Source: Comamonas sp. SCN 67-35
GTDB taxonomy: Bacteria > Pseudomonadota > Gammaproteobacteria > Burkholderiales > Burkholderiaceae_C
NCBI GenBank assembly: GCA_001725255.1
Contig: MEFV01000002.1
Span: 124,001 to 188,000 of the forward strand
DNA length: 64,000 bases
Direction of reading: 5' to 3'
Under the pieces are notes generated by a model that saw only the letters and a program-made list of their open reading frames with translations, did no database searches and was not told where the DNA came from. Positions 1 to 44,457 of this stretch are shown here, piece after piece. How positions within the stretch are numbered: the stretch's first letter is position 1; each line of letters starts with the position of its first letter. The translations under genes and the position numbers were made by a program.

Positions 1-1204
1 CTTCGCGTCCGGCAATTCTTTCGCCGCACCCCGGTCGCGCGAGATCGATCACCTGCGGCGCGATGCGCAGCCCCGATTCCAGGGAAAAGAACACGTTGAC
101 CCGCGGTGCGAGCAGCGTGCCCCGCGACTGCTCCAGCACCACCGCCAGGTGCCCCGACGCAAGGCGCACGAGCGAGCCCGTGGGGTAGATGCCCATGCAT
201 CTGACGAAGGCCTGGAAGACGCGGCTGTCGAAATGCCCGCGCGTCCATTCGGCCATGCGCCTGAGCGCGTCCGACGGATCCCAGCCGTTCTTGTAGGGGC
301 GGTTGGAGGTGATGGCGTCGTAGACGTCGCACACCGCGGCCATGCGCGCCAGCAGGTGGATGTCCGCCCCCATCAGGCGGTGCGGGTAGCCGCTGCCGTC
401 CATCTTCTCGTGGTGGTGCAGGCAGGCGTCGAGGACCTGTGGCGGCATCTTGCTCACGCGCAGCACCTCCGTGCCGAAGGCGGGGTGGCTGCGCATGATG
501 TCGAATTCCTCATTCGTGAGGCGGGCCGGCTTGTTCAGGATGGCATCGGGAATGCTGGCCTTGCCGATGTCGTGCATCAGGCCCGCCAGGCCCGCCAGGC
601 GCGTGGTCGCTTCGTCGAGTTCGAGCTGGCGCGCCAGCGCCAGCATCAGCGCCGAGACCGAGACCGAGTGCATGTAGGTGTATTCGTCGGCCGTCTTCAG
701 GCGCGCCAGGCTGATGAGCGCGCCGGGGTTGCGCGCCAGAGAACCCGCGATCTCATCCACCGTGGCTTCGGCACCGCGCGCATCGAGAGCGTGGCCCATG
801 CGCGCATCTTCGAACATGCTGAGCACCTGGGCCTTGGCACTGGCGCAGATGCCGCGCGCGCGCTCCAGTTCCTGCGTGGTGCTGGTGGGAGCGCGCTCGT
901 CCCGCGGGGCGAGCGCGATGATGGAGGCCGGGGCGGGTGAGGGTTCGTCGAGCCCGGCCAGCGTGGTGTCGATCTGCGCGTTCGCTTCGGTGAGCGAGAC
1001 GGGGCGCGCCACCTCGGGCACGTCGCCGCCCTTGTCGGTGTCGATCCAGACTTCCCGGATGGAGCTGCTCCGAATCCGGGCGACGTCCTCCTCGTTCTTG
1101 AGCAGAAAGCGCGTGCGCCAGAACGGATGCTCCATCCACGAGCCGCAGAACTCGTGGATGAACATGCCGGGAGACAGGTGGTGGACGTGGATGCGCTTGA
1201 GCAT
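1..1204 (-). CDS. HD-GYP domain phosphodiesterase with N-terminal DUF3391 (3' end beyond window)
   Basis: Predicted cyclic-di-GMP phosphodiesterase. The frame is open from an ATG at 1204 to the left edge, giving about 401 residues with the C-terminus missing. The N-terminus (MLKRIHVHHLSPGMFIHEF) is the DUF3391 domain usual in this family. The HD-GYP core follows, with GLMHDIGKASIPDAIL and the signature HHHEKMDGSGYP. The metal-binding histidines and aspartates are present, so hydrolysis of c-di-GMP is expected. It is divergent from recG with 55 bp between the start codons. An ATG near 1244 is in another frame and was not used. The left end reads ...VIDLARPGCGERIAGRE, so only a short tail should be missing. 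Confidence 0.9.
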   Translation of the reverse strand, partial: MLKRIHVHHLSPGMFIHEFCGSWMEHPFWRTRFLLKNEEDVARIRSSSIREVWIDTDKGGDVPEVARPVSLTEANAQIDTTLAGLDEPSPAPASIIALAPRDERAPTSTTQELERARGICASAKAQVLSMFEDARMGHALDARGAEATVDEIAGSLARNPGALISLARLKTADEYTYMHSVSVSALMLALARQLELDEATTRLAGLAGLMHDIGKASIPDAILNKPARLTNEEFDIMRSHPAFGTEVLRVSKMPPQVLDACLHHHEKMDGSGYPHRLMGADIHLLARMAAVCDVYDAITSNRPYKNGWDPSDALRRMAEWTRGHFDSRVFQAFVRCMGIYPTGSLVRLASGHLAVVLEQSRGTLLAPRVNVFFSLESGLRIAPQVIDLARPGCGERIAGRE

Positions 1205-1259
1205 GCCGGTGGGCGAATCGGCTGGAAAGCGGGAATGCGGGCCATGGTAGCCTGTTTGC

Positions 1260-3383
1260 GTGAGCAAAGCACCTGTTTCAGCGACACAAGGCACGGGACG
1301 CAGTCCGGCACGCCAGGCCATGGTCAGACTTGGCCTCGTGCGCGACATCGATCTGGCGCTGCACCTGCCGCTGCGCTACGAGGATGAGACGCGCATCGTG
1401 CCGATCAGGAACGCGCGCGAGGGCGAGGTGGCGCAGATCGAGGGCACGGTGCTGAGCTGCGAGGTGCAGCTGCACCCGCGCAGGCAACTCGTGGTGGTGA
1501 TCGATGACGGCACGGGGCGCTGCGAGCTGCGCTTTTTCAGCTTCTATCCCTCGCAGCAGAAAGCCATGGCCGTGGGCGAGCGCCTGCGCGTGCGCGGCGA
1601 GGTGCGCGGCGGCTTCTGGGGGCGGCAGATGGTGCACCCCGCGTTTCGCAAGGCCGAGGGGCTGCTGCCGACGGCGCTCACGCCGGTCTATCCCGCGTCG
1701 GCGCAGCTTCCGCAGGCCTATCTGCGCCGAGCGATCGCCACGGCGCTCACGCGCGTGCCGCTCGATGAAACACTGCCCGCGGATCTGCCCCCGCCACCGG
1801 TGCAGCTTCATCATGAAAGCAGGCCGAAAGGCTTGTGGAATCTGCGCGAATCGCTCCTGTTTTTGCATCATCCGACGCCCGAAGTCTCGCTGGCGCAGCT
1901 CGAAGATCGCACGCATCCGGCCTGGCAGCGCCTGAAGGCCGAGGAGTTGCTGGCGCAGCAGCTCTCGCAGTGCATGGCCCGGGCGCAGCGCGCGCGCCTG
2001 CGGGCGCCGGTGCTGGCGCCCTCGCAGGCGGCGGACAGCCTGCACGCGCAGCTGCTGGCGACGCTGCCGTTCACGCTCACGGCGGCGCAGCGGCGCGTGA
2101 GCCGCGAAATCGCGCGGGACCTGGCGCGCGCGCAGCCCATGCACCGCCTGCTGCAGGGCGACGTGGGCGCGGGCAAGACCGTGGTGGCGGCGCTGGCGGC
2201 CTGCGTGGCCATCGATGCGGGCTGGCAGTGCGCGCTGATGGTGCCCACCGAAATCCTCGCGGGCCAGCACTTCGCCCGGCTGGTGCAGTGGCTCGCGCCA
2301 CTGCTGGATGCGCGCGGGCAGTGCGTGGCCTGGCTCGTCGGCGGGCAGAAGAAGAAAGAGCGCGAGCAGATGCTGGTGCGCATCGCCAGTGGCGAGGCGG
2401 CGCTGGTCGTGGGCACGCACGCCGTGATCCAGCAGACGGTGCGCTTCGCACGGCTGGGCCTGGCCATCATCGACGAGCAGCACCGCTTCGGCGTGGCGCA
2501 GCGCCTGGCGTTGCGACAAAAGCCGGCCGATGCGGGAGAGGACGCGCCCGAGCCGCACCTCTTGATGATGACGGCCACGCCGATTCCGCGCACGCTGGCG
2601 ATGAGCTACTACGCCGATCTGGATGTCTCCACCATCGACGAGCTGCCGCCGGGGCGCACGCCCATCGTCACGCGCGTGATCGCCGACAGCCGCCGCGACG
2701 AAGTGATCGCGCGCATGGCCGATCAGGTGCGCGAGGGGCGGCAGACCTACTGGGTCTGCCCGCTGATCGAGGAAAGCGAGCAGCTTGATCTGCGCAATGC
2801 CACGGCCACGCACGCCGAGCTGTGCGAGGCGCTGCCCGGCGTCGCCGTCGGTCTGCTGCATTCGCGCATGCCGGCGGCCGAAAAGCAGGCGGTGATGCAG
2901 GGCTTCAAGGCCGGGCAGATCGCGGTGCTGGTTTCGACCACCGTCATCGAAGTGGGCGTGGACGTGCCCAACGCCAGCCTGATGGTGATCGAGCATGCCG
3001 AGCGTTTCGGCCTGTCGCAGTTGCACCAGCTGCGCGGGCGTGTGGGGCGCGGGGCGCCGGCGTCGGCCTGCGTGCTGCTGTTTTCGATGGGCGATAGCGG
3101 GCATCTGGGCGAAAATGCGCGCGAGCGCCTCAAGGCCATGGCGCAGACGCACGATGGCTTCGAGATCGCGCGCCGCGACCTGGAGATCCGCGGCCCCGGC
3201 GAATTCCTCGGGGCGCGCCAGTCGGGTGACGCGATGCTGCGTTTTGCCGATCTCGAGATGGACGGCGCCTTGCTGCAGTGGGCGCGCGCGGCGGCGCCGT
3301 GGATGCTGGAGCGGCATCCGCGGCTCGCCGGCCAGCACATCGAGCGCTGGCTCGGCGGCAGGGCGCAATTCCTCAAGGCGTGA
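1260..3383 (+). CDS. recG: ATP-dependent DNA helicase RecG
   Basis: Superfamily 2 helicase that remodels stalled replication forks and branch-migrates Holliday junctions. The 707 residues are close to the usual ~690-700. An N-terminal wedge/OB domain (IEGTVLSCEVQ and following, about residues 60-130) precedes the helicase core. Walker A (GDVGAGKTVVAAL) is near residue 300 and the DEQH box (IDEQHRFGVAQR) near 403. Also visible are TATPIPRTLAMSYY, STTVIEVGVDVPNAS, and the RecG-type C-terminal QLHQLRGRVGRG and GEFLGARQSG. The start is a GTG at 1260. It lies 61 bp upstream of oxyR on the same strand, an association common in Burkholderiales. Confidence 0.97.
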   Translation: MSKAPVSATQGTGRSPARQAMVRLGLVRDIDLALHLPLRYEDETRIVPIRNAREGEVAQIEGTVLSCEVQLHPRRQLVVVIDDGTGRCELRFFSFYPSQQKAMAVGERLRVRGEVRGGFWGRQMVHPAFRKAEGLLPTALTPVYPASAQLPQAYLRRAIATALTRVPLDETLPADLPPPPVQLHHESRPKGLWNLRESLLFLHHPTPEVSLAQLEDRTHPAWQRLKAEELLAQQLSQCMARAQRARLRAPVLAPSQAADSLHAQLLATLPFTLTAAQRRVSREIARDLARAQPMHRLLQGDVGAGKTVVAALAACVAIDAGWQCALMVPTEILAGQHFARLVQWLAPLLDARGQCVAWLVGGQKKKEREQMLVRIASGEAALVVGTHAVIQQTVRFARLGLAIIDEQHRFGVAQRLALRQKPADAGEDAPEPHLLMMTATPIPRTLAMSYYADLDVSTIDELPPGRTPIVTRVIADSRRDEVIARMADQVREGRQTYWVCPLIEESEQLDLRNATATHAELCEALPGVAVGLLHSRMPAAEKQAVMQGFKAGQIAVLVSTTVIEVGVDVPNASLMVIEHAERFGLSQLHQLRGRVGRGAPASACVLLFSMGDSGHLGENARERLKAMAQTHDGFEIARRDLEIRGPGEFLGARQSGDAMLRFADLEMDGALLQWARAAAPWMLERHPRLAGQHIERWLGGRAQFLKA

Positions 3384-3444
3384 CGGGAAACGGCAGGTGC
3401 GGGAAAATCCGCGCTGAATAAAAACCTATCCGGGAGACGGGGCG

Positions 3445-4407
3445 ATGACGCTGACTGAACTCAAATACATCGTCGCCGTGGCGCGCGAGCGGCACTTCGG
3501 CCGCGCGGCCGAGGCCTGCTTCGTCGCGCAGCCGACGCTCTCGGTGGCCGTCAAGAAGCTCGAAAAAGAGCTGGACGTAAAGATTTTCGAGCGCAGCACG
3601 GCGGACATCACGCTCACCACGCTCGGAGAGGAAATCGTGCAGCAGGCGCAGAGCGTGCTGGAGCAGGCGGCCGAAATCCGCGAGATCGCCAAGCGCGGCA
3701 AGGACCCGCTCGCGGGCGCGCTCACGCTCGGCATCATCTACACCATCGGCCCCTATCTGCTGCCGCAGCTGGTGCGCCAGGCGATCCGGCGCACGCCGCA
3801 GATGCCGCTTATGCTGCAGGAAAACTTCACCATGAAGCTGCTGGAGATGCTGCGCACGGGCGAGATCGACTGCGCCATCATGGCCGAGCCCTTTCCCGAC
3901 ACCGGCCTGGCGGTTGCGCCGCTGTACGACGAGCCCTTCCTCGCCGCCTTCCCCGCCACCCACCGGTTTGCCGAGCGCGAGTCGGTCTCCGCGCTGGAAC
4001 TCAAGAACGAGACCATGCTGCTGCTGGGCACCGGCCACTGCTTTCGCGACCATGTGCTGCAGGTCTGCCCGGAATTCGCCCGCTATGCGACCAACGCCGA
4101 GGGCATACGGCGCACCTTCGAAGGCTCGTCGCTGGAAACCATCAAGCACATGGTGGCCGCCGGTATGGGCGTGACGCTGGTGCCGCGGCTGGCGGTGCCC
4201 CAGGATGCGCTCTCGACCGTGCGCCGGCGCCGCTCCGACGAGCCCTCGGTGCGCTACCTGCCGCTGGTGGAGACCGAAGGGGCGGCGCCGCCGAGCCGCC
4301 GGGTGGTGCTGGTCTGGCGGCGCAGCTTCACGCGCTACGAGGCGATCGCGGCGCTGCGCAATGCCGTCTACGCGTGCAACCTGCCGGGCGTGCAGATGCT
4401 CACCTGA
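3445..4407 (+). CDS. oxyR: Hydrogen peroxide sensor / LysR-type regulator OxyR
   Basis: LysR-family activator of the peroxide response. The winged HTH is at the N-terminus (TELKYIVAVARERHFGRAAEACFVAQPTLS). The effector domain carries GHCFRDHVLQVC, which places the two redox cysteines at residues 199 and 208, the same numbers as the disulfide-forming pair of E. coli OxyR. That makes OxyR much more likely than a generic LysR protein. It is 320 residues long and starts at ATG 3445 after a GGGAGA-like ribosome site. Downstream is dps, a classic OxyR target, which supports a local peroxide-defence role. Confidence 0.95.
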   Translation: MTLTELKYIVAVARERHFGRAAEACFVAQPTLSVAVKKLEKELDVKIFERSTADITLTTLGEEIVQQAQSVLEQAAEIREIAKRGKDPLAGALTLGIIYTIGPYLLPQLVRQAIRRTPQMPLMLQENFTMKLLEMLRTGEIDCAIMAEPFPDTGLAVAPLYDEPFLAAFPATHRFAERESVSALELKNETMLLLGTGHCFRDHVLQVCPEFARYATNAEGIRRTFEGSSLETIKHMVAAGMGVTLVPRLAVPQDALSTVRRRRSDEPSVRYLPLVETEGAAPPSRRVVLVWRRSFTRYEAIAALRNAVYACNLPGVQMLT

Positions 4408-4449
4408 GCACGTCCGGGCTATCCTGATGATTGCCACAATTCATCGCGC

Positions 4450-4490
4450 GCGCTCTTGAATCAAGCGGTTTCAGCTATAGTTTTGCTAGA
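4450..4490. repeat. Partial copy of a Comamonadaceae-type intergenic repeat
   Basis: The stretch between oxyR and dps contains, on the minus strand, AAAACTATAGCTG followed by CGCTTGATTCAAGAGCG. This resembles the short dispersed 'TATAGCTGCTTGCGCTTG' repeats I associate with Comamonadaceae intergenic regions. A better copy lies upstream of glpK at about 6866-6960. Identification is from memory of the motif; no genome-wide count was possible. Confidence 0.35.
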
Positions 4491-4537
4491 CCCGCAGCCG
4501 CTTGCGGGCCTGTTCGCGAAACCTCAGGAGGAACACC

Positions 4538-5044
4538 ATGGCCAAGACCACGAAAACCGCCGCCCGCGGCGTCGCCATCAACATCGGCATCGGTGAAAAA
4601 GACCGTGCCGCCATCGCCCAGGGGCTCTCGCGCCTGCTGGCCGACACCTACACGCTGTACCTGACGACGCACAACTTCCACTGGAACGTGACCGGCCCGA
4701 TGTTCAACACCCTGCATGCGATGTTCATGCAGCAGTACACCGAGCTGTGGAACGCGGTCGATCCCATCGCCGAACGCATCCGCTCGCTCGGCCATGTGGC
4801 GCCGGGCTCGTACGCGGCCTACGGCAAGCTGGCCAGCGTGGCCGACGCGCCCGCCACGCCGCCCAGGGCGCTGGAGATGGTGCGCATCCTCGTCGAGGGC
4901 CACGAGGCCGTCGCGCGCACCGCCCGCGGCCTGTTTCCCGCCGTCGAGAAGGCGGGCGACGAGCCCACCGCCGACCTGCTCACGCAGCGCCTGACGGTGC
5001 ATGAGCAGGCCGCGTGGATGCTACGCTCGCTGCTCGAAGACTGA
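4538..5044 (+). CDS. dps: Dps-family ferritin-like DNA-protection protein
   Basis: Dps-type miniferritin that forms a dodecamer, oxidises and stores Fe(II) with H2O2, and protects DNA. It has 168 residues. The ferroxidase-site region reads [19 protein letters not shown] followed by VDPIAERI, which supplies the H/W, H, D and E ligands expected at the dimer interface. ATG 4538 was chosen because a near-perfect AGGAGG lies 6-12 bp upstream; the longer open frame has no ribosome site. Position directly after oxyR suggests peroxide regulation, but no clear OxyR tetrad motif was identified in the 130-bp gap. Confidence 0.95.
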
Positions 5045-5108
5045 GCGCCCGAGCCCGCGGCGCGCGGGCGTCGTGCAGGCGCCGCGCGTTTTGCCGACAA
5101 TTTCGCGC

Positions 5109-26143: not shown

Positions 26144-26225
<82 letters not shown>

Positions 26226-26260: not shown

Positions 26261-26276
26261 ATTGCTGCCGGATTTT

Positions 26277-26298
26277 TTGCTGCACTTTTGCTGCACTT
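26277..26298. repeat. Left 22-bp repeat: two tandem TTGCTGCACTT units
   Basis: Two head-to-tail copies of the 11-mer TTGCTGCACTT, 51 bp inside attL and 59 bp upstream of the integrase start. An identical 22-bp block is at 42699-42720 upstream of the AlpA-like gene. The position and symmetry suggest arm-type recombinase sites or AlpA/Xis binding sites. Confidence 0.7.
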
Positions 26299-26357
26299 TT
26301 TCCTATACCTTGTCCCGGATGGGATGTCCCCTTCCGGAAACTCATCCGGAGACAAGG

Positions 26358-27359
26358 ATGGCTACCATCAACAAGCGCGGCCTGTACCAGTATCAGGCGA
26401 TCGTCCGCAGAGCCGGGTACCCGACCCAGTGCAAGACGTTTGAAGCAAAGCGCGATGCCCAGGATTGGGCGTCGACGGTCGAGTCAGAGATGCGGCGCGG
26501 AGTCTTCGTTGACCGCACCGAGGCCGAGCGCATGACGCTGGGCCAACTGCTTGAACGCTACCGCGACAAGGTAACACCTCTGAAGCGTGGCGAAGCTCCT
26601 GAACGATCCAGGCTCAAGCGGTTGATCGCACACCCTATCGCCCTCCAGCGCCTGGCCCGACTTCGAGCCGTGGACTTCTCGGACTACCGGGATGAGCGTC
26701 TTGACGAAGGGGCGTCAAACAAGACAGTTCGTGAAGAACTGCTGTTGTTGTCCGCGGTCCTCAACACGGCGTCCAAAGAATGGTCGATTCCAGTCGAGAA
26801 CTGGGTTTGTCACTTACGCAAGCCTGCGGCTGGAAAGCATCGAGAACGCCGACCCTCTGCGGACGAAGAGCAAAAACTGATGACTGCTTGCAAAGAGAGC
26901 AAGAGCGAGGGGCTCGAATTTGCTGTCGTGCTTGCGATTGAGACTGGCATGCGGCGCGGCGAACTCGCCGGATTGACGTGGGCTCAGGTGGACTTCAGCA
27001 ATTCCGTTGTTCGATTGGTGCAAACGAAGAACGGGGAAGGACGTATCGTGCCGTTGTCCGTGAAAGCGGAAGAAGCGCTTCGAGCGCTTCGAGTCCCGTC
27101 GCGCGCCACCAACTGCAAGATCTTCTCGTTTTACGATTCCAATGGATTGGGCGCGGCTTTCACCCGTGCCTGCCGGAGGGCTGGCATCCAAGACCTCCAC
27201 TTTCACGATTTGCGCCATGAGGCGGCATCGCGCTTCGCTCCACGCATGGCGGCTCCCTCGCTGGCGAAAATCATGGGTTGGAAGACACTTCAGATGGCGA
27301 TGCGGTATTACAACCCGCGCGAAGCTGAGCTTGTCGCGCTGGTACGTGCGGCGGCGTGA
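26358..27359 (+). CDS. int: Tyrosine-recombinase integrase of the island
   Basis: Site-specific recombinase that would integrate and excise the element at tRNA-fMet. It has 333 residues. The N-terminus has an arm-binding-like segment (ATINKRGLYQYQAIVRRAGY), then a SAM-like core-binding domain. The catalytic domain carries all expected residues: the first Arg in ETGMRRGELAGLTW, Lys in TKNGEGRIVPL, H-x-x-R in HDLRHEAASR, the GWK position in MGWKTLQMAMRYY, and the Tyr nucleophile in MRYY. ATG 26358 was preferred over 26262 because it follows AAGG and avoids translating the tandem repeats. The protein appears intact. Confidence 0.95.
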   Translation: MATINKRGLYQYQAIVRRAGYPTQCKTFEAKRDAQDWASTVESEMRRGVFVDRTEAERMTLGQLLERYRDKVTPLKRGEAPERSRLKRLIAHPIALQRLARLRAVDFSDYRDERLDEGASNKTVREELLLLSAVLNTASKEWSIPVENWVCHLRKPAAGKHRERRPSADEEQKLMTACKESKSEGLEFAVVLAIETGMRRGELAGLTWAQVDFSNSVVRLVQTKNGEGRIVPLSVKAEEALRALRVPSRATNCKIFSFYDSNGLGAAFTRACRRAGIQDLHFHDLRHEAASRFAPRMAAPSLAKIMGWKTLQMAMRYYNPREAELVALVRAAA

Positions 27360-28490: not shown

Positions 28491-29154
28491 ACGCAGGTGC
28501 GGTCGCTTCCGCGCCCGCAAGCATCGTTCCTCTGCACGGGTATAGCGCTTTTCGGAAGAATCTACAGGAGGATTTCGAGGAACATCAATACATCAAACTT
28601 CCGGAAACCAAATCACATAACAACCACGCGGGCTGCGGCGCGATGCAAATCCTCGCAAGTCGTAGAAAAATTTCATACTGCCGCGTGTCAATCGAAGTAG
28701 ATCTGACGCGCCGAAGCAGCGCGCGCCGCTTGCCGATCAGCGGCGGTGCAGATGGAAACGCCCGTGCCATCCGGACAAGCCGTTTCGGTCGGCTATCGTG
28801 CCTGGCCGCCCGTAGCGGGCTGGCACGCATTGGCTCAGGGACATCGTGCTGGACCGCGTCGCGCCGCAACACCTTTTTTGGCCAACCGCTTCAGGCTGGA
28901 GGCAGTCGGTTAAATTTCAGAGACGAATGTCGGCAGCCATCAAAACCAGCCGCTCGTTGGATGCCTCGCCGGCTGACCGCTTTGGTCAGAGACGGCTCCT
29001 TCATCCACAATTTCATGAATGGGTGCCAGCGCTGCTCGGGCGATGGCGCTGAACGTCCGCTCCCACCATCAGCCAACTGGCGCTGTCGACCCTGAGCAGC
29101 CATCCAGATGAAAGCTCCAAAGCTGTCATTCAGCCAAGCGGCATGTGCAAGGCC

Positions 29155-29424
29155 AATACGCCTTGGCGCGCGCGGGCGCCGCACGGCATCGAGCCATGGC
29201 AGGTCAATGCCCAGCACTTCGCGGTAAAGGAACAGCAACGCGCTCAACGCCTGGTTGTGCGTGGCAGCAGCCACCCGCCGCTCGTTGGCCAGCATGCCCA
29301 GAAAACGCTCGATTTCCACGTGCCCCATGTCTCGCGGATGCCGCAAACCGTGCCATTTCACAAACGTGCGCACCCATTGCACATAGGCCTGTTCGGTGCT
29401 AGTGTTTGTAACAAATTCACTCAC
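29155..29424 (-). pseudogene. Integron integrase (IntI) fragment, N-terminal domain only
   Basis: The first 90 codons read as the core-binding domain of an integron-type tyrosine recombinase: TEQAYVQWVRTFVKWHGLRH, PRDMGHVEIERFLGMLANER, ATHNQALSALLFLYREVLG and VRRPRAPRRI. Homology stops at that point. The frame continues to 28891 with unrelated sequence (GLAHAAWLNDSFGAF...), and the catalytic domain (R, H-x-x-R, Y) is absent. The fragment cannot recombine. Its orientation means cassettes would lie to the right, beyond 29424, where cassette-like genes and an attC-like site are found. Confidence 0.8.
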
Positions 29425-29525
29425 GGACCTGATCCAGCAACCGTGTGGCGCGCAACACAGGAGGGGCGGCGGGTTTCATGGCTGAATTTAGTACTGTATT
29501 TTTGTACGATATACATGCCGCAAAG

Positions 29526-29529
29526 CTAG
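29526..29529. repeat. CTAG target-site duplication, left of the IS5-family element
   Basis: CTAG immediately before the left inverted repeat, matched by CTAG at 30709-30712. This is the 4-bp target preference known for IS5-family elements. Confidence 0.8.
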
Positions 29530-30708
29530 GGAAGGTCTGCACAACCCGCCTCATGGCGCAAGCTGATGCGTGAACATTCACATGGTGAAACCGAAGCCGA
29601 ATTTACGCCCGATTTCCCGCTCTTTCGGCCAATTTCAGCCGTATTGCGGGCCCTTGCCCGTGCTGCAGGCGCACTCATGCCCGCGCTCCCTGCAAAATGC
29701 GCTTGCGCACCATCCACAGATTGGACAGCGCGAACAGCACCAGAAGCTGGCTGGTGTTCTTGGCCAGGCCCTTGTAACGCACCTTGCGGTGGCCAAACTG
29801 GCACTTGAGAACTCGGAACTGGTGCTCGACCTTGGCGCGGATACGCGCCTTGACGGTCTCCATCTGATCGAGCAACACATCAAGGGGGCGGTTCTTGTCG
29901 AGCTTCTTGCGCTTGCCCGGCATCATGGCGATGTGCCAATGGGTATCAGGGTGCTGCTCCTGTACTTCGCCACGCTTGTCAACACCTCGGTAGCCCGAAT
30001 CTGCAAAGACTTGTGTTTCCTCGCCGTGCAACAGCGCCGCTGCCTGCGTGATGTCGTGGGCGTTGGCGGCCGTGGTGGTGACGGTGTGCACCAAGCCCGA
30101 ATCGGCATCCACGCCAATGTGCGCCTTCATACCGAAGTGCCATTGGTTGCCCTTCTTGGTTTGGTGCATCTCAGGGTCGCGCTGCCCATCCTTGTTCTTG
30201 GTGGAACTGGGTGCGGCAATCAAGGTGGCATCGACCACGGTGCCGCTCTTGAGCAGCAGGCCGCGGGCGGCCAGTTGGGCATTGACGGTGGCAAGGATTT
30301 GAGCTGCCAGCTCGTTCCTCTCCAAGAGGTGTCGAAAGCGCAGGATGGTGCTCTCGTCGGGCAGGCGGGTGATGCCTGCGTCCAGGTGGGCGAACTCTCG
30401 GTACAGAGGGACGTCGTGCAAGGCTTCTTCCATCGCCGGGTCGCAGTGCCCGAAGAATTGCTGCAGCAGGTGAATGCGCAGCATCGTCTCCAGGGCAAAG
30501 GGCGGGCGCCCCGTCTTGCCTGCAGGCGCGTGCGGTGCAATCAGCGCCAGAAGATCAGGCCATGGGATGACGGCATCCATCTCATCGAGGAATGCACGCT
30601 TGCGCGTCCTCTTGGGGGCAAGTTCAAATCCGCTTGTTGCAAGGCTCATTTGCTTCATGGGTGTTCAACGTCCGAGGGGCTCAGGTGGTGGACTTTTGCA
30701 GACCTTTC
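29530..30708 (-). mobile_element. IS5-family insertion sequence, apparently complete
   Basis: A 1179-bp element with terminal inverted repeats GGAAGGTCTGCACAA (29530-29544) and, inverted, GAAAGGTCTGCAAAA (30694-30708), 13 of 15 matching. CTAG duplications flank it. It contains one intact transposase. It inserted about 100 bp from the integron-integrase start, that is, into the former attI/promoter region. Confidence 0.88.
29675..30658 (-). CDS. IS5-family DDE transposase
   Basis: Full-length 327-residue transposase. The N-terminal helical domain (KTGRPPFALETMLRIHLLQQ, PLYREFAHLD) is followed by the DDE catalytic core: first Asp in GTVVDATLIAAPSS, second in VFADSGYRG, and Glu in RAKVEHQFRVLKCQFG. 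A MHQTKKGNQWHFGMKAHIGVD segment is typical of the family. The frame is open throughout, so the element could be active. A decayed relative of the same segment is at about 40058-40134. Confidence 0.93.
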   Translation of the reverse strand: MKQMSLATSGFELAPKRTRKRAFLDEMDAVIPWPDLLALIAPHAPAGKTGRPPFALETMLRIHLLQQFFGHCDPAMEEALHDVPLYREFAHLDAGITRLPDESTILRFRHLLERNELAAQILATVNAQLAARGLLLKSGTVVDATLIAAPSSTKNKDGQRDPEMHQTKKGNQWHFGMKAHIGVDADSGLVHTVTTTAANAHDITQAAALLHGEETQVFADSGYRGVDKRGEVQEQHPDTHWHIAMMPGKRKKLDKNRPLDVLLDQMETVKARIRAKVEHQFRVLKCQFGHRKVRYKGLAKNTSQLLVLFALSNLWMVRKRILQGARA

Positions 30709-34465: not shown

Positions 34466-35887
34466 TCATGCACTCGGAACCATATGTTTCACGCTATCGT
34501 CCAAGGCAATCCGCTCGGAAGTCTGTATGGAGTCCAATGGCATAGCCAACCGAAGGCTCTCGCGATACTGCTCCGCTGGAGCAGCATGGATAACCTCCAC
34601 CACGGCATCGTAGTTCGCCCGAATCACAGCCTCGATCACCTTAAGGTCGGCACGGAAAAATTCCTTACGCCCATTGACTTTGTTGAGTCTGCCAGACGCG
34701 AAATGAGAATGCAGCTTGGCTTCCAGAGCCGGGGCGTTGTCGGAAAACACCAGGGCATGCACATCGAAGCGGAACGGGACTGATGCATCCCCCAGTTCAT
34801 CTACACGATCCATCGGCTCCAAGCGCCGAGTCATCCCGATCTTGAAGATGCCCTCTCCAAACGCGCCTATATTGGATATCACGTAAACGTAACCAGCCCG
34901 GGCGTTCTGTTCGCGGTAATCGAGCAGTCTTTCCTCTTCATCTAGCTTGCTGTTCTGGCTGGAAAGCTCATCGATACGAGTCTGCAGATCGTCACGCTCA
35001 TCCTGGTCAACTGCAGCACCGAGGCGCAATTGCAGCTTCTGGAGTGCGCTGGTGAAGTGGCGACGCTCTTTCTCGATTTTGGCCCGCGCCTCCTGGATTT
35101 CCTTTTCGAGTTTTTCTTGCTCACGTCGGTCTTCCCTTGCCTGCCGAACTGCCTCTTTTTCCTCTTGGCGTTTCATCTGGTATTCGTGTGCCAGATACAG
35201 CTCCTGCAGCTTGCGCTCCAAGACGATGTCTTTCCACCAGGCGTCGATAGCCTTCAACAGCTTGTTGCAGGTCTCAAATGACCGTCGTATGCGCTCCTCC
35301 ATCTTCTCCAGGTTACTGAACTTGACGTTGTCAATGCAATACTCACTTTCGCTGTTAAAGGATCTCAGCGCCAGCTTCAATGCATCCTTGCGCAATTTTT
35401 TCCACTGCGTCTTTGTGAATTCAACGGCGTAGTTGTCCCATGCATCAACCTCTGCACTCAACCCTCTGGCTGTTCGCTTCTGATCCTCGCGAATCTCATC
35501 GAGTCGATTCTTGTAGTCAATGCTGTTCGTGAATTGATACTTGGGTTCATACAGCGCAAAAGACTCCAGCTGAACGGTATCTTCGGCTCCCAAAATTTGT
35601 TGCTGGATCTCTTGTAGCTGGGAACGTGCTGCTTCCAAATCAGCCTGCGTCGCCGCGACCTGGGCCTGGACACTGGCAAGCAGTGTTCCTTCGTTCTGGA
35701 TCTGCTTTTTTACCGCCAGCAGATCCAGTAACCCGATATCCCGAGCCTTTGCTTCCAGATCGTCGTACTTGGCCTGCAGCGTCTGCATTTCGGCTTGGGA
35801 TTGCTGCCGATTAGCCTGCAATTCGGCTGCCAGCCGAGCCGCATTCTCCTTGTGTTCCGGGCCTTTGAAATAGTCGCCAAACGCCAT
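34466..35887 (-). CDS. DUF4041 protein with C-terminal T5orf172/GIY-YIG-like nuclease domain
   Basis: A 473-residue protein. Coiled-coil segments occupy about residues 15-130 and 240-325. The DUF4041 region lies between them (FALYEPKYQFTNSIDYKNRL... DNVKFSNLEKMEERIRRSFE). The C-terminal domain starts at GYVYVISNIGAFGEGIFKIG, then MTRRLEPMDRVDELG and ALEAKLHSHF; this matches the T5orf172/MUG113 branch of GIY-YIG nucleases with GIY-, YIG-, Arg- and Glu-equivalents present. Such proteins are common in phages and islands; function is unproven. The start at 35887 follows GGTGGAG. It is divergent from the Argonaute gene. Confidence 0.82.
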   Translation of the reverse strand: MAFGDYFKGPEHKENAARLAAELQANRQQSQAEMQTLQAKYDDLEAKARDIGLLDLLAVKKQIQNEGTLLASVQAQVAATQADLEAARSQLQEIQQQILGAEDTVQLESFALYEPKYQFTNSIDYKNRLDEIREDQKRTARGLSAEVDAWDNYAVEFTKTQWKKLRKDALKLALRSFNSESEYCIDNVKFSNLEKMEERIRRSFETCNKLLKAIDAWWKDIVLERKLQELYLAHEYQMKRQEEKEAVRQAREDRREQEKLEKEIQEARAKIEKERRHFTSALQKLQLRLGAAVDQDERDDLQTRIDELSSQNSKLDEEERLLDYREQNARAGYVYVISNIGAFGEGIFKIGMTRRLEPMDRVDELGDASVPFRFDVHALVFSDNAPALEAKLHSHFASGRLNKVNGRKEFFRADLKVIEAVIRANYDAVVEVIHAAPAEQYRESLRLAMPLDSIQTSERIALDDSVKHMVPSA

Positions 35888-36599
35888 ATCTTCTCCACCT
35901 TCGTTCACTCTACTGTCGAAATGCTTGTCTTAGGATTATCGGTTTTCCCCACCATTTGCCATCTTCGTGACTTGCTTATGGCGGCGCTTCTTGTCCCGAA
36001 TCTTGCGGATTGACAGTTGACTCCTGCTGCTGAAAGGTCGTTCATAACGAAGAAGGGAACGACCGCTGTGGGTCGAAAGCGGGAGTTCGTTCTGGGCAGA
36101 AGCAGTCAGCGCTGCGGCGCCGATTGCCGCGCACAAGTCCTACGCTCGCTGAACCTTGTACAGCTGACCTTCGTGCTTCTCGCAGTCGCCAAGTCCAGCG
36201 ACCGCTTGGTGGCTCTTAGCGTGAGTTCGGCCAGCCGCAGCGACGGACTGCACCCGCTGCAGAACTGACCTACGTTATGGCAGCTTCCGCTGATTGCGGT
36301 CGGTCGAAACGGCCAAGACTGCTTCAGAGCGTAGAGCAGAAGGACCTTCGCAGGCTACCTCCTTGGGTCCGCTCTAGCCTTGCTGATTCATCGGTCGATT
36401 TGGTTATCCCGACTGCTGTCCACGCAGTACGACTGCTACGGGTCAATGGACTTGCTAACCGGGAACGGCCAGTCGGCGACGCCGGCAGGGCCCGAGATAC
36501 TCCGCAAGATTCTGACCAATCGTCTTGAGGTAACCTCGTGTAGGCCTGCTGAAAACGGCTGGCGCCATTCAAAAGCATTACACGGGTGGAGGACTGAAG
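35888..36599. other. 712-bp divergent region between the DUF4041 and Argonaute genes
   Basis: No credible gene on either strand. It contains short fold-back motifs of the type GACCGCTGTGGGTCGAAAGC and CGGTCGGTCGAAACGGCC, which are frequent in intergenic DNA of many bacteria. The last 20 bp hold the strong ribosome site GGTGGAGG for the Argonaute gene. I could not assign promoters with confidence. Confidence 0.5.
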
Positions 36600-39500
36600 T
36601 TGACCCAGACGCTGTCGGTGGACGCAATGGTGCGTTCGATCGGAGTGCTGAAGGACCAGCCGCTGCTGGTTTTCTTGGGGGCTGGTGCTTCCATGAGCTC
36701 AGGAATGCCATCGGCCGTCCAATGCATTTGGGAATGGAAACGGTCGATCTTTCTTACCAACAATCCGGGTCTTGAGCGGCAGTTCGATGAGCTTTCGCTT
36801 CCTTCCGTTCGGCAGCGAATTCAGCGCTGGCTGGATGCTCAGCAGCGGTTTCCCAAGGAGGGGGCGCCAGATGAATATTCAGTTTTCATCGAGGAATGCT
36901 ACACGCGCGGGGATGATCGCCGGCGCTATTTTCAGGAGTGGGTGAAGGCTTCGAATCCCGGCTTGGGCTACCAGTTGTTGGCTGAGCTCGCGAGGCGTAA
37001 TTCGGTCAGTTCGGTCTGGACGACAAACTTCGATTCACTCGTCGCACGAGCAGCCACCGCCCACGGAGTTACCACCATAGAGATAGGGCAAGATTCCAAA
37101 GAGCGCGTAACGCGCCCGCTGGCCTTAGGCGAGCTGCAGTGCGTCTCGATGCATGGCGATTATCGGTACGACCCACTCAAAAACACGCAGAGGGAACTTG
37201 CAGAGCAGGAGGCCGAGCTTCGTGCGACCTTGATCCCCTTGCTGAAATCTCATCCTGTGCTCGTCTGTGGATACAGTGGCAGGGACACAAGCGTGATGGA
37301 GGCATTCCTGGAGGCTTATCAGGACCCTAAGCAGCAGCGCCTTCCCTTGTTCTGGACGCAGTACGGCGACGCGGCGGCCACTGGCGATGTGGCAAGACTG
37401 CTGGAGACCCCGGGAAACCTTGAGCCCCAGCGTTTCCTCGTGCCGGGCGTGACCTTCGACGACTTGATGCGCCGAATCGCATTGCATGTGACGCCCCCCG
37501 ACGATCGGCACCGAGTCGACACAATCCTCGACAGATTCAAAGAGTCACCCACGACACAACGGGCAGCCTTCTCCCTGCCGAACCTACCGGTCAGCGGTCT
37601 GGTCAAGAGCAACGCATTTCCGATGCACCCCCCTGGTGAATTGCTCGAATTCGATCTGACACGGTGGCCAGCTCGTGGAACCGTCTGGGCGGAGCTACGA
37701 GCCCTTGGCGAAGCGCATGGTTTCGTTGCTGCGCCATTCCGGGGCAAGGTCTACGCGCTTGCGTCGCCTCAGCAAATCCAACGGGCTTTCGTGGGAAACC
37801 TCGCTTCCGAGGTGAAGCGGGTGCCGCTCAATGACGAGGACCTGCGCTACGAAGACGGTACAGCCAACAGCCTTATGCGACGGGCGACCGCGCTGGCGCT
37901 GGCCGCGAGGGCGGGGTTGCCATGCGATCACGAAGGCCTAATTTGGGACCCAAGCAACAGCAACAAGCATTGGGTGGAAAGACGAGAATGGATCGCGTAT
38001 TGGGCAGTCATTCTGCAGGTGAAGACGGTGAGTGGCTCATTGGCGTTGGTACTGAAGCCGACCCTTTTTGTCACCGATGCCAAGGGCAATGAAGCGCCCC
38101 GAATAGTCGTCAACGCGGTGAAGATCAAGGTGCTTGGCTACCAGCACAACGCTCAATTCAATGAGGCGCTTGAGTTTTGGCGTGGGAAGCTCCTCCCTGA
38201 GCATGAGACTGTGCTCCGCTTCCCTGACGTGAACGAGGGCGTCAAGTTCTCCGTTTCCGCTCGGCCCTTCTTCGCCAAGATCACCGACGAACGCGACGCC
38301 TCGGTCAGGCTTAGCTACAAGCACGAGCGCCTGGCCTCGCAGGTCGGGCTGCAGATCGCGGAACCGCGGCTGTCCTTCTTGCCGAAGTCGGGAAGGGGGA
38401 CAGCGTTCGACACACACCCCATTCGCGGCTTGATGCAGGATCGGCCATTCGATGCGCTGCTGACAGACACCGGTATCGCGACCAAAATCCGCGCCGCCCT
38501 AATCTCGCCCGCCAGGGATGGACGGCGGGTCAGTGAGTATCTCGGCAAGCTGCAGGAGCCTGTCGACCCGACCCGCTCGGATGAAGACTACTTGCTGGCC
38601 TTTCCGGGCTTCAGTAATGCGTTCAAGTGCGGACTGGAGGTGACACAGCCGGGCGGTAAGGGATTTGTTGGTCTCGACGAGCCGACCGACTGGACGACGG
38701 CTTCCGCACGTGAGCTGGGTGCGCGGATCGCTGCAGCAGTGTCCTCATTGAAGGCGGCTGCCAACCCCAGCGTGATCTTCATCTTCATTCCTTCCCGATG
38801 GAGTGCGCTCCGAGGCTATGACGTTGAAGGCGAGAAGTTTGACTTACATGACTTCGTCAAGGCCTCCGCCATTCCGCAGGGCGTCGCCACTCAGTTCCTG
38901 GAAGAAGACACCCTCACACATCCCCAGCAGTGCCGGGTTCGATGGTGGCTCTCGCTAGCGACCTACGCCAAAGCCATGCGTAGTCCCTGGGCGCTTGACG
39001 GCCTAGACAAAGACTCCGCCTATGTCGGCGTCGGCTACAGCCTGCGACATCGGCCGGGGGAGGATGGGAACGTCATTTTGGGTTGCAGCCACCTCTATAG
39101 CCCGAACGGACTCGGTCTCCAGTTCCGACTGAGCAAAATTGAGAACCCGATCATGCGCAGAAAGAACCCATTCATGAGCTTTGATGATGCGCGCCGTCTC
39201 GGGGAGGGCATCCGAGAACTCTTCTTCGAAGCGAATCTCAGGCTACCTAAGCGCGTTGTTATTCACAAGCAAACACCGTTCTTGAAGGAGGAACGCGAGG
39301 GACTTCAGGCTGGCTTGGAGGGTGTGGAATGTGTGGAACTCCTGCAGATCCACATTGACGACACATTGCGGTATGTGGCGTCCAAGGCGGATAGGAAGGG
39401 AGCTCTGCAGATCGACGGGTACCCGATCCATCGAGGTACCACAATCGTTGTGGATGACGCGACTGCGCTGTTGTGGGTGCATGGCGCCTCGACGGCGTTG

Positions 39501-39752
39501 AGGGCCAATCGTGCGTACTACCAGGGTAAGCGTCGAATCCCAGCACCTCTTGTGCTGACTCGGCATGCCGGGACCAGCGACTTGATGACACTGGCTGCCG
39601 AAATCCTCGGCCTCTCGAAGATGAACTTCAACAGCTTCGACCTTTACGGGCAACTTCCAGCCACCATCGAGACTTCAAGGCGCGTGGCGCGGATTGGCGC
39701 ACTGCTCGACCGGTACTCGGACCGGTCGTACGACTATCGTCTGTTCATGTGA
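36600..39752 (+). CDS. Single-chain SIR2-APAZ-MID-PIWI short prokaryotic Argonaute
   Basis: A 1050-residue predicted defence effector. Residues 1-290 are a SIR2 NADase: FLGAGAS (25-31), TTNFD (141-145), MHGDY with His185, GYSGRD (224-229). Residues ~300-580 fit the APAZ (N-like) module. The Argonaute part begins near 585 (AEPRLSFLPK). The MID guide pocket is intact by motif: H750/K754 in HDFVKA, Gln765 in ATQFLEED, Lys791 in TYAKA. PIWI follows to the C-terminus, but the slicer residues are lost: AYVGVGYS has Gly812 where Asp is expected, and VVIHKQTP has Gln891 for Asp. By analogy with SPARSA systems, guide-target recognition would trigger NAD+ depletion and growth arrest. The start is TTG 36600, 7 bp after GGTGGAGG. 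The frame is intact. Confidence 0.88.
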   Translation: MTQTLSVDAMVRSIGVLKDQPLLVFLGAGASMSSGMPSAVQCIWEWKRSIFLTNNPGLERQFDELSLPSVRQRIQRWLDAQQRFPKEGAPDEYSVFIEECYTRGDDRRRYFQEWVKASNPGLGYQLLAELARRNSVSSVWTTNFDSLVARAATAHGVTTIEIGQDSKERVTRPLALGELQCVSMHGDYRYDPLKNTQRELAEQEAELRATLIPLLKSHPVLVCGYSGRDTSVMEAFLEAYQDPKQQRLPLFWTQYGDAAATGDVARLLETPGNLEPQRFLVPGVTFDDLMRRIALHVTPPDDRHRVDTILDRFKESPTTQRAAFSLPNLPVSGLVKSNAFPMHPPGELLEFDLTRWPARGTVWAELRALGEAHGFVAAPFRGKVYALASPQQIQRAFVGNLASEVKRVPLNDEDLRYEDGTANSLMRRATALALAARAGLPCDHEGLIWDPSNSNKHWVERREWIAYWAVILQVKTVSGSLALVLKPTLFVTDAKGNEAPRIVVNAVKIKVLGYQHNAQFNEALEFWRGKLLPEHETVLRFPDVNEGVKFSVSARPFFAKITDERDASVRLSYKHERLASQVGLQIAEPRLSFLPKSGRGTAFDTHPIRGLMQDRPFDALLTDTGIATKIRAALISPARDGRRVSEYLGKLQEPVDPTRSDEDYLLAFPGFSNAFKCGLEVTQPGGKGFVGLDEPTDWTTASARELGARIAAAVSSLKAAANPSVIFIFIPSRWSALRGYDVEGEKFDLHDFVKASAIPQGVATQFLEEDTLTHPQQCRVRWWLSLATYAKAMRSPWALDGLDKDSAYVGVGYSLRHRPGEDGNVILGCSHLYSPNGLGLQFRLSKIENPIMRRKNPFMSFDDARRLGEGIRELFFEANLRLPKRVVIHKQTPFLKEEREGLQAGLEGVECVELLQIHIDDTLRYVASKADRKGALQIDGYPIHRGTTIVVDDATALLWVHGASTALRANRAYYQGKRRIPAPLVLTRHAGTSDLMTLAAEILGLSKMNFNSFDLYGQLPATIETSRRVARIGALLDRYSDRSYDYRLFM

Positions 39753-40321
39753 GTTCGCTCCCCGACAAACGACCGCGTACTTAACCGAGTCCGCATCATC
39801 ACGCTCTGCAGTTCATCCCGGGAGAGAATCAGAGCGGCCGCCTTTGCTGTAGTCCTGCGGCTCGATTCGGCCATACGCAACGCTTGCGGCGGCTTACGGC
39901 CAGAAACTTTCCCAGGCAGGCACTGCTGGCTGAGACCAGCTTCCAGACTGATGTGAGTCATTCGCGGTCCAGTGTTTCAACGGCAGCCACCGCCAACACT
40001 GGTCGTTGAACGCCGCCTGTCATGAACGGCAGCTTCCCCTCGGACCGACCGCTCGATTGCGCGGCTCGGCATCTACGCCGACATGCACCTTCATCCCGAA
40101 GTGCCATGGTTGCCCTTCTTCGTCTGGTGCATGGCCCGCGTGATCCGCAGGCAGCGGCCGGAGCCGCGTGATGCGCTTCATCAATGGCAACCGTGGGCGA
40201 AATCGACAGGTCCCCGACCCCCCGCCTGGAAGTCAGCGAGCAGCAAGAACGCGATCAAACACGGGATGCGCGGGTGGGAGTACGGGGGCAACATCAGCTA
40301 CTGGAGTTCCTAGCGACGCTT
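39753..40321. other. 569-bp region of decayed sequence after the Argonaute gene
   Basis: No intact gene. It includes the IS5 transposase remnant described separately (40058-40134). The remaining sequence shows no domain, tRNA or strong terminator. Confidence 0.5.
40058..40134 (-). pseudogene. IS5-family transposase fragment
   Basis: On the minus strand the sequence encodes MHQTKKGN, then after a one-base deletion HFGMKVHVGVDAEPR. This parallels [21 protein letters not shown] of the intact IS5 transposase at 29675-30658. About 77 bp survive, frameshifted; neither IS end was found. Confidence 0.7.
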
Positions 40322-42325: not shown

Positions 42326-42586
42326 TCATACAGCCTCCCGACGAGCAATCTGCTCGGCCTTAGTCGGACGACCAGGACGGCGGCGTGTAGGGGATGACGC
42401 GGGCATTGCGGCGGAACGCTTCGCCTCGACCCATATTTTGACGTCAGTGACCGCGAACCGAGGTAGGCGCCCCAGGTACAATACCGGAGGAAGGTCACCG
42501 TCTGTGTTGATGCGGTTGTAGATCGTGCGGGTCTTCAAGCCTACACTGGAAGCCAGCTCGGTGGGAGTGATCAGGAGAGGAGTCAT
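42326..42586 (-). CDS. AlpA-family DNA-binding regulator / excisionase-like protein
   Basis: An 86-residue protein. The N-terminal MerR/AlpA-like helix-turn-helix reads MTPLLITPTELASSVGLKTR, then TIYNRINTDGDLPPVLYLGR. A basic tail follows (RRRPGRPTKAEQIARREAV), with an AT-hook-like RRPGRP. AlpA-type proteins regulate integrase expression and act as excisionases in islands. The start at 42586 follows AGGAGAGG. It lies at the island end opposite the integrase, and a tandem 22-bp repeat 113 bp upstream is duplicated in front of the integrase. Confidence 0.85.
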   Translation of the reverse strand: MTPLLITPTELASSVGLKTRTIYNRINTDGDLPPVLYLGRLPRFAVTDVKIWVEAKRSAAMPASSPTRRRPGRPTKAEQIARREAV

Positions 42587-42698
42587 CGTCTGTACGAAGA
42601 GGCCCGGCCACATTGGCCGTCCAGGGTATAGGCTCAAAGCGCCTATTTCGAACGTTCTGTTTACCTGGACTGGCGCTCGCCACCCCTCAGCCCTCGGA

Positions 42699-42720
42699 TT
42701 GCTGCACTTTTGCTGCACTT
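42699..42720. repeat. Right 22-bp repeat: two tandem TTGCTGCACTT units
   Basis: Identical to 26277-26298 and in the same orientation. It is 94 bp inside attR and upstream of the AlpA-like gene. Exact identity over 22 bp at the two ends, outside the att core, points to a functional recombination or regulatory site. Confidence 0.7.
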
Positions 42721-42814: not shown

Positions 42815-42864
42815 CTCATAACCCAAAGGTCGGAGGTTCAAATCCTTCCCGCGCAACCAATAAA
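42815..42864 (+). repeat. attR: truncated tRNA-fMet 3' half
   Basis: Perfect 50-bp copy of 26176-26225, containing the 3' side of the anticodon arm, the variable and T arms, acceptor 3' strand, CCA and AATAAA. There is no 5' half, so it is not a functional tRNA. Confidence 0.95.
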
Positions 42865-42886
42865 TCGAGCGCTTAGCTTGTATCAG

Positions 42887-42911
42887 AGGCCCACTTCGGT
42901 GGGCCTTTTTG
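42887..42911 (+). terminator. Rho-independent terminator right of attR
   Basis: GGCCCAC-TTCG-GTGGGCC followed by TTTTT: a 7-bp GC-rich stem with a stable UUCG loop. Before island insertion it would have stood 25-50 bp after the tRNA, so it is probably the original terminator of the rplQ/tRNA-fMet transcript. Confidence 0.9.
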
Positions 42912-43201
42912 CGTTTGGCCCGAATTTGCCCACGATATTTCACTGTTGGCCCCGACACAGCAGCCTGCGGGGTTGGTTGAACAACACGCGTAATTGGCAG
43001 TGATCGGGGTGGTCACGCTCAATCCGAAGCGTGAGGCTGCAATCCAGGCAGTCATCATGAATCAGCACTGCTGACTGCATGAGTCAGGTGACAGCTATCC
43101 TGGCTTTTACCGAACGCCTCGAATTGCTTCATCGGAACGTCATGCGAAACCCTGGGTAAACCCTAGGATTTCATACGTTGACTTTTCTTCACTTTGTCTA
43201 T

Positions 43202-43260: not shown

Positions 43261-44457
43261 ATGAACAGTTCAAATAGGGTAAGAGCCTCGCACATGATCG
43301 CGTTCGCTCTGGCGGCGCTAATGTCGACTGGCACCTGGGCGGCCAAGGAACCGATCAAGATCGGCGTCCCGACCTCTCTCACAGGCCCCTATGCGCAGCT
43401 CGGCGACGAGGTCAAGCGTGCCGTCGAGTTCGCGGTCAACGAGGCCAATGCCGCCGGTGGCGTCGACGGCCGCAAGGTCGAGGTGCGTTTTCTCGACACC
43501 GAGGCCAAGCCCGATCTGGCACGGCAGCAAGCGGAAAAGCTGGCGTTGGATGGTTTCAACATCATGACCGCGACAATTGCTTCAAACGAAGTCCTTGCGA
43601 TTGGACCGATGCTCAATCGTTGGAATGCGGTCTACGTTGCTACCGTGACAAAGGGCAATGACATCACCGGCGCCCAGTGCCAGCCCAGGCTGTTCCGTGT
43701 CAACCGGCCCGACTATTCTGACGGTGCAGTGATTCAGCCATGGCTGGCAACGCGCTCTGAAACCAAGTGGGCAATTGTTGGCGCCGACTATGCGTGGGGC
43801 CGCAACTCAGGTGAGAGTTTCAAGAAGGCGGCTGCCGCAACCGGCAAGACGGTCGTCTCGGAAAATTACCCAGCCCTGGGCAGCAACGACTATGCGGCGT
43901 TCATCCAGAAGGTGGCTGATTCAGGTGCGCAGGGCATGTGGGTCGCTCTGGCAGGGCGTGACGCCATCACCTTCGCGCGCCAGGCAAAGCAGTTTGGGTT
44001 GCTGGACAAGGTCACGACAGCCGGGATCAGCTTCACCACGGACGGCACGGTCAGTGTCCTCGGGGATACGGTCAAGGGCGTCCACACAATCATCAATTAC
44101 AGCTCCACCCTGGATACGCCGGCCAACCGGAAGTTTGTCGCCGACTGGGGCAAGGTGTATCCGGGTGACGCTGCAACCAACTTTGGCGGTGAGACTTACA
44201 TCGGCATGCAGGTGATCTTCCAGGCCGTGAAGAAGGCCGGCAGTGTCAAGCCAGCCGATGTTGCCAAGGCCCTCTCGGGCGGCACCTTCGAGACGCTTCT
44301 GGGCACGCAGCAGATGCGCAAGGAAGATCACCAGTTGGTCGGGCCTAATTTCTTTGGCGTTGTCAAAGAATATGAAGGCAAGCTGCGACCGGTGATCACC
44401 ATGACTGTGCCGGCCAAAGACGCGACGCCGGCGCCGGATGGCAGCTGCAAGCTTTGA
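43261..44457 (+). CDS. ABC transporter substrate-binding protein, LivK/HAAT type
   Basis: Periplasmic binding protein of a branched-chain-amino-acid-type importer, 398 residues. Signal peptide residues 1-27 (IAFALAALMSTGTWA). The mature start KEPIKIGVPTSLTGPYAQLG is the Peripla_BP_6 signature. Further parts include NEANAAGGVDGRKVEVRFLD and WAIVGADYAWGRNSGESFKK. In this family many members bind aromatic or other carboxylic acids rather than amino acids. Clustering with a CoA ligase and beta-oxidation-like genes suggests the ligand is the substrate of that pathway. Confidence 0.88.
   Translation: MNSSNRVRASHMIAFALAALMSTGTWAAKEPIKIGVPTSLTGPYAQLGDEVKRAVEFAVNEANAAGGVDGRKVEVRFLDTEAKPDLARQQAEKLALDGFNIMTATIASNEVLAIGPMLNRWNAVYVATVTKGNDITGAQCQPRLFRVNRPDYSDGAVIQPWLATRSETKWAIVGADYAWGRNSGESFKKAAAATGKTVVSENYPALGSNDYAAFIQKVADSGAQGMWVALAGRDAITFARQAKQFGLLDKVTTAGISFTTDGTVSVLGDTVKGVHTIINYSSTLDTPANRKFVADWGKVYPGDAATNFGGETYIGMQVIFQAVKKAGSVKPADVAKALSGGTFETLLGTQQMRKEDHQLVGPNFFGVVKEYEGKLRPVITMTVPAKDATPAPDGSCKL

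Follow-up and report, generated by a model that had tools for sequence, protein, structure and literature searches.

The question raised by positions 36600–39752 of a 64,000-nucleotide stretch of Comamonas sp. SCN 67-35 DNA ("the window") is whether one long open frame, in which SIR2-like and Argonaute-like sequences seem to be joined, is an intact defence gene, and how its product would act. We consider it very probable that this frame encodes a single-chain SIR2-APAZ-short Argonaute (SPARSA) protein of the S1A type, residing on an island at a tRNA-fMet gene, and that the protein acts by depletion of nicotinamide adenine dinucleotide (NAD+), with a guide RNA pairing with invader DNA and so freeing the SIR2 NADase.

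Gene and domain architecture

An earlier reading made from the sequence only had proposed an uninterrupted frame of 1050 residues, and the ORF list does contain one: 1050 open codons on the forward strand with a TTG start, which is preceded by a Shine-Dalgarno-like GGAGG on the same strand at 36588–36592, 7 nt upstream. The other five frames carry 16, 29, 35, 37, and 39 stops across the same interval, and the guanine-plus-cytosine (GC) content at codon positions 1, 2, and 3 is 0.627, 0.450, and 0.697, respectively. Relative to a gene that is 90% identical (L002), the ratio of nonsynonymous to synonymous change (dN/dS) is 0.066—namely 0.107 in SIR2, 0.070 in APAZ, and 0.043 in MID-PIWI—and relative to one that is 86% identical (L003), for which synonymous sites are near saturation, it is 0.060. 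For L004 and L006, synonymous change is saturated across the whole gene, and no ratio is therefore given. The feature is a real gene under purifying selection.

SIR2, APAZ, MID, and PIWI all lie within one polypeptide, in the order that had been proposed. The SIR2 domain occupies residues 1–312 (36600–37535, + strand) and gives the sole Pfam domain seen in the protein (SIR2_2, PF13289, 2e-10); the N-L1-L2-like APAZ domain occupies residues 323–575 (37566–38324, +), and the MID-PIWI or short Argonaute half occupies residues 576–1050 (38325–39749, +). The PADLOC models for pAgo (PDLC02384, 1228 bits) and Aga_SIR2 (PDLC02420, 653 bits) cover residues 2–1050 and 4–1050, respectively. The best solved-structure matches by sequence are the chains of Geobacter sulfurreducens SPARSA (GsSPARSA), with the Argonaute chain (GsAgo) aligned to residues 597–1050 (2.9e-52) and the SIR2 chain (GsSir2) to residues 19–297 (4.8e-25), while a profile built from 33 family members spans residues 16–577 of GsSir2-APAZ in one stretch (1.6e-50). 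The predicted folds of both halves match GsSPARSA. MID-PIWI likeness at residues 590–1050 and an APAZ fold at 300–580, on whose absence the proposal would have foundered, were both found, and a spurious reading of either domain was rejected on the strength of the alignments, the profile, and the predicted folds.

Conserved residues of SIR2, MID, and PIWI

In an alignment of 61 rows, which includes the window protein, the SIR2 residues N143, H185, G186, and D187 are kept in every row. N143 and H185 align with GsSir2 N142 and H186, the loss of which abolishes NADase activity according to excerpts from PMC10781750. The guide-phosphate residues proposed for MID, that is, H750, K754, Q765, and K791, align with GsAgo H166, K170, Q181, and K207, and each of them is present in all 37 fused and all five split Argonautes compared; across the 61 rows, K754, Q765, and K791 are invariant and H750 is found in 60. 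An HK-type pocket for the guide 5′-phosphate is thus present.

With respect to PIWI, column 812 holds Gly in 58 rows and Ala in three, and column 891 holds Gln in 27, Arg in 17, Leu in 15, and Pro and Lys in one each, so that Asp is found at neither column in any of the 61 rows. Loss of the catalytic tetrad was scored at these two positions only. The claim that the catalytic aspartates are lost therefore stands for G812 and Q891 as residues, whereas its other part, that these are the slicer columns, is presumed from the general PIWI motif and not from alignment to an active Argonaute.

Branch membership and relatives

A tree of 46 MID-PIWI halves was built from hand-picked rows: 37 fused proteins (19 listed proteins, 17 loci, and the window protein), five split ones, and four other short Argonautes as the outgroup, three of which sit beside DUF4365 genes. 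The split set is a small sample, consisting of four fetched pairs, one of them (Sagittula) without its N-terminus, and GsAgo residues 23–473; long branches in the outgroup and in one of the split rows drew a warning from the tree program. All 37 fused rows lie to the same side of one branch (99/99), while another (97/96) sets the five split rows, including GsAgo, apart. Hence the comparison with short-pAgo clades that the sequence-only reading had called for groups the window protein with the fused S1A proteins and not with the split S1B ones, to which we take GsSPARSA to belong. The tree agrees with the monophyly reported in 2018, when, according to excerpts from PMC6299218, 106 APAZ-containing short prokaryotic Argonautes (pAgos), 102 of them with SIR2, formed one branch, and also with the S1A label given to SIR2-APAZ-pAgo fusions in excerpts from PMC12205087 and PMC11156904.

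A search with the full-length protein gave 996 matches; among the best 120 of these, 118 are 1009–1085 residues long, the size of the fused form, and the nearest are 86–90% identical. In a viral-contig collection, relatives were found at eight loci, seven of them full length and fused. Among 59 related genomes other than its own, any match was found in four and a full-length fused match in none, a patchiness that is expected of mobile cargo. A search for stand-alone relatives of the Argonaute half, in which the best 120 of 253 matches were considered, gave start points scattered over the window protein (57 at residues 150–540, 20 at 540–610, and 43 beyond 610), the pattern expected of broken or partial genes. 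Seven of these 120 (P0133, P0145, P0151, P0161, P0182, P0200, and P0209) begin at window residues 568–586, near their own start and close to the APAZ/MID junction of the fused protein; they may come from true split genes, perhaps ones that were split again within the fused branch, or from genes that have broken. In a gammaproteobacterial bin, the frame of a relative at 1624–4768 of L013 is interrupted after 874 codons. On a contig of the viral collection (L019), the gene at 3704–5107, which comes after a fused relative with 66% identity at 475–3633, encodes a phage replication-protein domain (PF05144, 1.9e-06).

Proposed mechanism and alternatives

By analogy with GsSPARSA, a guide RNA would be held by the MID pocket and by the cleft between MID-PIWI and APAZ, and would pair with the DNA of an invader. 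A PIWI loop would then check the pairing; the candidate is residues 846–860, which correspond to the GsAgo loop 261–276, whose deletion nearly blocks activity according to excerpts from PMC10474274. The SIR2 pocket would open, NAD+ would be consumed, and the cell itself would stop. NAD+ depletion directed against plasmids or phages, as anticipated from the sequence, is the right expectation from homologues.

Several observations weigh against this reading. The Argonaute half of GsSPARSA shares only 26–28% identity with the window protein, and the Pfam Piwi model matched nothing in the Comamonas genome (the control was matched in one of 14 genomes). The single-sequence alignment to GsSir2-APAZ ends at residue 297, short of APAZ, so that the profile and the fold were needed to show this domain; over residues 5–562, the predicted-structure match has a high root-mean-square deviation (7.9), which suggests that SIR2 and APAZ may be placed differently from those in the solved GsSPARSA chain. 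In excerpts from PMC10474274, mutating GsAgo H166, the equivalent of H750, hardly affected NAD+ loss, and an intact phosphate pocket is for this reason a weak sign of activity. In GsAgo, the residues that touch guide bases 1 and 2 are D164, N184, R190, and N195 (excerpts from PMC10781750), and the fused protein has D748, E768, H774, and R779 at these positions; only the Asp is kept, and the contacts fail at three of the four (N184 to E768, R190 to H774, and N195 to R779), so that guide choice may differ from that of GsSPARSA. Finally, IS5- and IS110-type transposases lie within the island, and a decayed piece directly downstream of the Argonaute gene (40059–40132) resembles part of the IS5-type transposase gene at 29675–30658 (82% over 49 nt and 92% over 26 nt).

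Together with an integron-type integrase fragment, these remains would suit a relic gene, or one that a decaying island carries along passively, without benefit to the host. A full-length frame with a dN/dS of 0.066, a Shine-Dalgarno-like site, and all named catalytic and binding residues in place make such a history very improbable, however. The SIR2 domain of a guide-directed defence protein could also work in a way that does not involve bulk NAD+ hydrolysis, for instance by making a signal or modifying proteins, since several chemistries are known for SIR2 folds; the only two NCBIfam matches are indeed to deacetylase/deacylase models. These matches reach 14–16 bits where the cut-offs are 243 and 305, whereas in PADLOC the protein matches pAgo-linked SIR2 and, weakly, ThsA, and the Asn-His pair that GsSPARSA requires for NAD+ loss is found in all 61 rows, so that we regard a different chemistry as improbable. 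As to what is protected, a gene carried by an integrase island and related to the mostly full-length, fused genes at the viral-contig loci could shield its island from rival mobile elements and not the host from phages. Such a role is compatible with host defence, and the adjoining second predicted anti-phage gene fits broad defence cargo; as an explanation in place of host defence it is unlikely, though it deserves to be taken seriously. Guide-directed NAD+ depletion by an intact single-chain protein is accordingly the reading that we prefer.

Guide-base contacts of the fused branch

At the position of GsAgo R190, the 37 fused rows hold Asn (16), Asp (10), Ser (6), His (4), and Thr (1) and never Arg, which is also found in none of the 61 rows of the larger alignment; among the five split rows, Arg is present in two and absent from three. 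As the alignment of the base-contact loop is uncertain, we put forward a change of guide code only as a prediction. Three other residues, T771, R794, and H831, are invariant in all 61 fused rows and differ in all five split rows. Tentatively, the S1A branch might read a different guide start, with the phosphate pocket kept, the grips on bases 1 and 2 swapped, and its own invariant T771, R794, and H831, giving it a guide code of its own along with a built-in 1:1 ratio of sensor to NADase; we see this as possible rather than probable.

The island at tRNA-fMet

The target site of the island is a tRNA-Met (CAT) gene detected by ARAGORN at 26144–26220 (+), which is read as the initiator tRNA-fMet because of its C1/A72 mismatch. 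Its 3′ end forms a maximal identical repeat of 50 bp, with attL at 26176–26225 (+) and the second copy, attR, at 42815–42864 (+). A tyrosine integrase gene adjoins the tRNA at 26262–27359 (+; PF00589, 1.9e-26; phrog_1 integrase, 2.2e-51), and an AlpA-like or excisionase-like helix-turn-helix protein is encoded at the far end at 42326–42718 (−; phrog_66, 8.1e-08; HTH_17, 0.002, below the Pfam cut-off). The GC content of the island is 0.573, compared with 0.656 and 0.651 in the flanks. An empty site is present in two of eight same-genus genomes, G008 (read as sequence) and G006 (taken from coordinates only), in which the left flank and the tRNA (86%) continue directly into a match to the right flank of the island (88% and 87%, respectively, over 103 bases, 53 of them past the repeat); in the other six, the match to the right end spans 44–61 bases at the tRNA, too short to tell. 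Positions 42865–42917 (+) are thus the sequence that natively lies downstream of the tRNA, now displaced, with a terminator-like hairpin: the 88% match to the uninterrupted G008 locus (repeat included) covers them, and a hairpin like the one that follows the tRNA in G008 is now located 3′ of attR. The proposal that the Argonaute gene is cargo of a tRNA-fMet island with mobile-DNA features is borne out by this repeat, the integrase, the empty sites, and the transposases.

Inside the island, the piece at 28891–29424 (−) matches an integrase N-terminal domain (PF13495, 2.4e-22), and the DNA at 29155–29530 shows an 85.5% match to DNA of a Diaphorobacter plasmid that carries the annotation integron integrase; by sequence, 28891–29424 is probably an integron-integrase fragment. 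No close copy of the island was found on plasmids: eight records match, each over at most 5% of the island, and in the five that have a named feature the match lies in transposase or integrase genes. To the right of attR, a transporter-type gene at 43261–44457 onward reads as part of a branched-chain amino acid or urea ABC transporter. No counterpart of it above 31% identity was found among the matches listed in the eight same-genus genomes, and the core right flank is for this reason confirmed only for the 53 bases past the repeat; another strain-specific segment may start near 43261.

Neighbouring genes

On the opposite strand, 0.7 kb upstream of the fused gene, lies a PD-Lambda-1-type predicted defence gene with DUF4041 and T5orf172 (34466–35908, −; PF10544 and PF13250), which matches PADLOC model PDLC03976 at 440 bits over positions 55–475 of 491. 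The island therefore carries two predicted defence systems.

Neighbourhoods were compared across 22 fused loci (the window and 21 others) for ORFs of at least 70 residues within 6 kb, with partial or frame-broken loci (L007, L013, L018, and L025) excluded, and no partner gene common to all 22 was found. The widest recurring family occurs at five loci, in varied positions and on both strands, with a DNA methyltransferase as its L004 member; two further families occur at three loci each and two at two loci each. Neighbours in the same place (+15 and +323) were seen only in L005 and L006, where they are near-identical to each other. When PADLOC was run on 10 hand-picked neighbours, five had no match. 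Two gave strong matches, one to a methyltransferase model and the other to a type I restriction model; two more gave partial-length matches to DrmB models, and the last a weak match to a type III model. Since one chain holds all parts of the two-gene complex and the 22 loci share no neighbour, we infer that no partner gene is required.

Comparison with known systems

Fused S1A proteins, as described in excerpts from PMC6299218, PMC12205087, and PMC11156904, resemble the window protein in their one-chain domain order, their HK-type MID pocket, and the lack of Asp at the two slicer positions. No feature was found that places the window protein outside this group, and it adds one more intact protein to a fused branch that was already known. 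The fused protein of Paraburkholderia graminis C4D1M (L006) has the same architecture, is 62% identical, and occupies the same sub-branch of the tree. A fused protein of P. graminis was reportedly tested for plasmid interference by Zaremba et al. in 2022. In the literature searched, no experiments on fused SIR2-APAZ-Argonaute proteins were recognised, which does not mean that none exist; this outcome fits the earlier remark that the fused form is far less studied.

GsSPARSA (PDB 8in8, 8jkz, and 8y80) is alike in both predicted folds, the SIR2 Asn-His pair, the phosphate pocket, and the Asp-less slicer positions, but is encoded by two genes instead of one and makes guide-base contacts that are not kept here. 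Excerpts from PMC10474274 describe it as forming no larger assemblies, whereas PDB entry 8y80 is titled tetrameric, so that the sources disagree. Within the same genus as the window, G008 carries a split pair (L031/L027), SIR2-APAZ plus Argonaute, with frames that overlap by 4 nt (L027 1486–1489); these two genes show 33–35% identity to the fused one and cluster with the split rows and not with the fused gene. After the pair comes a gene for 253 residues (L027 3025–3786), a putative defence gene of the HamA/DUF1837 type.

The fused branch is large, with 996 matches in one search, while the solved SPARSA structures among the matches are two-chain complexes of one system. The locus described here offers a one-gene SPARSA that is intact, lies on a small, defined island beside a second predicted defence gene, and is easy to move and assay. 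Comparison of the split and fused forms thus makes it testable whether tethering of the NADase to the Argonaute, together with changed guide-base contacts, alters guide choice or activation.
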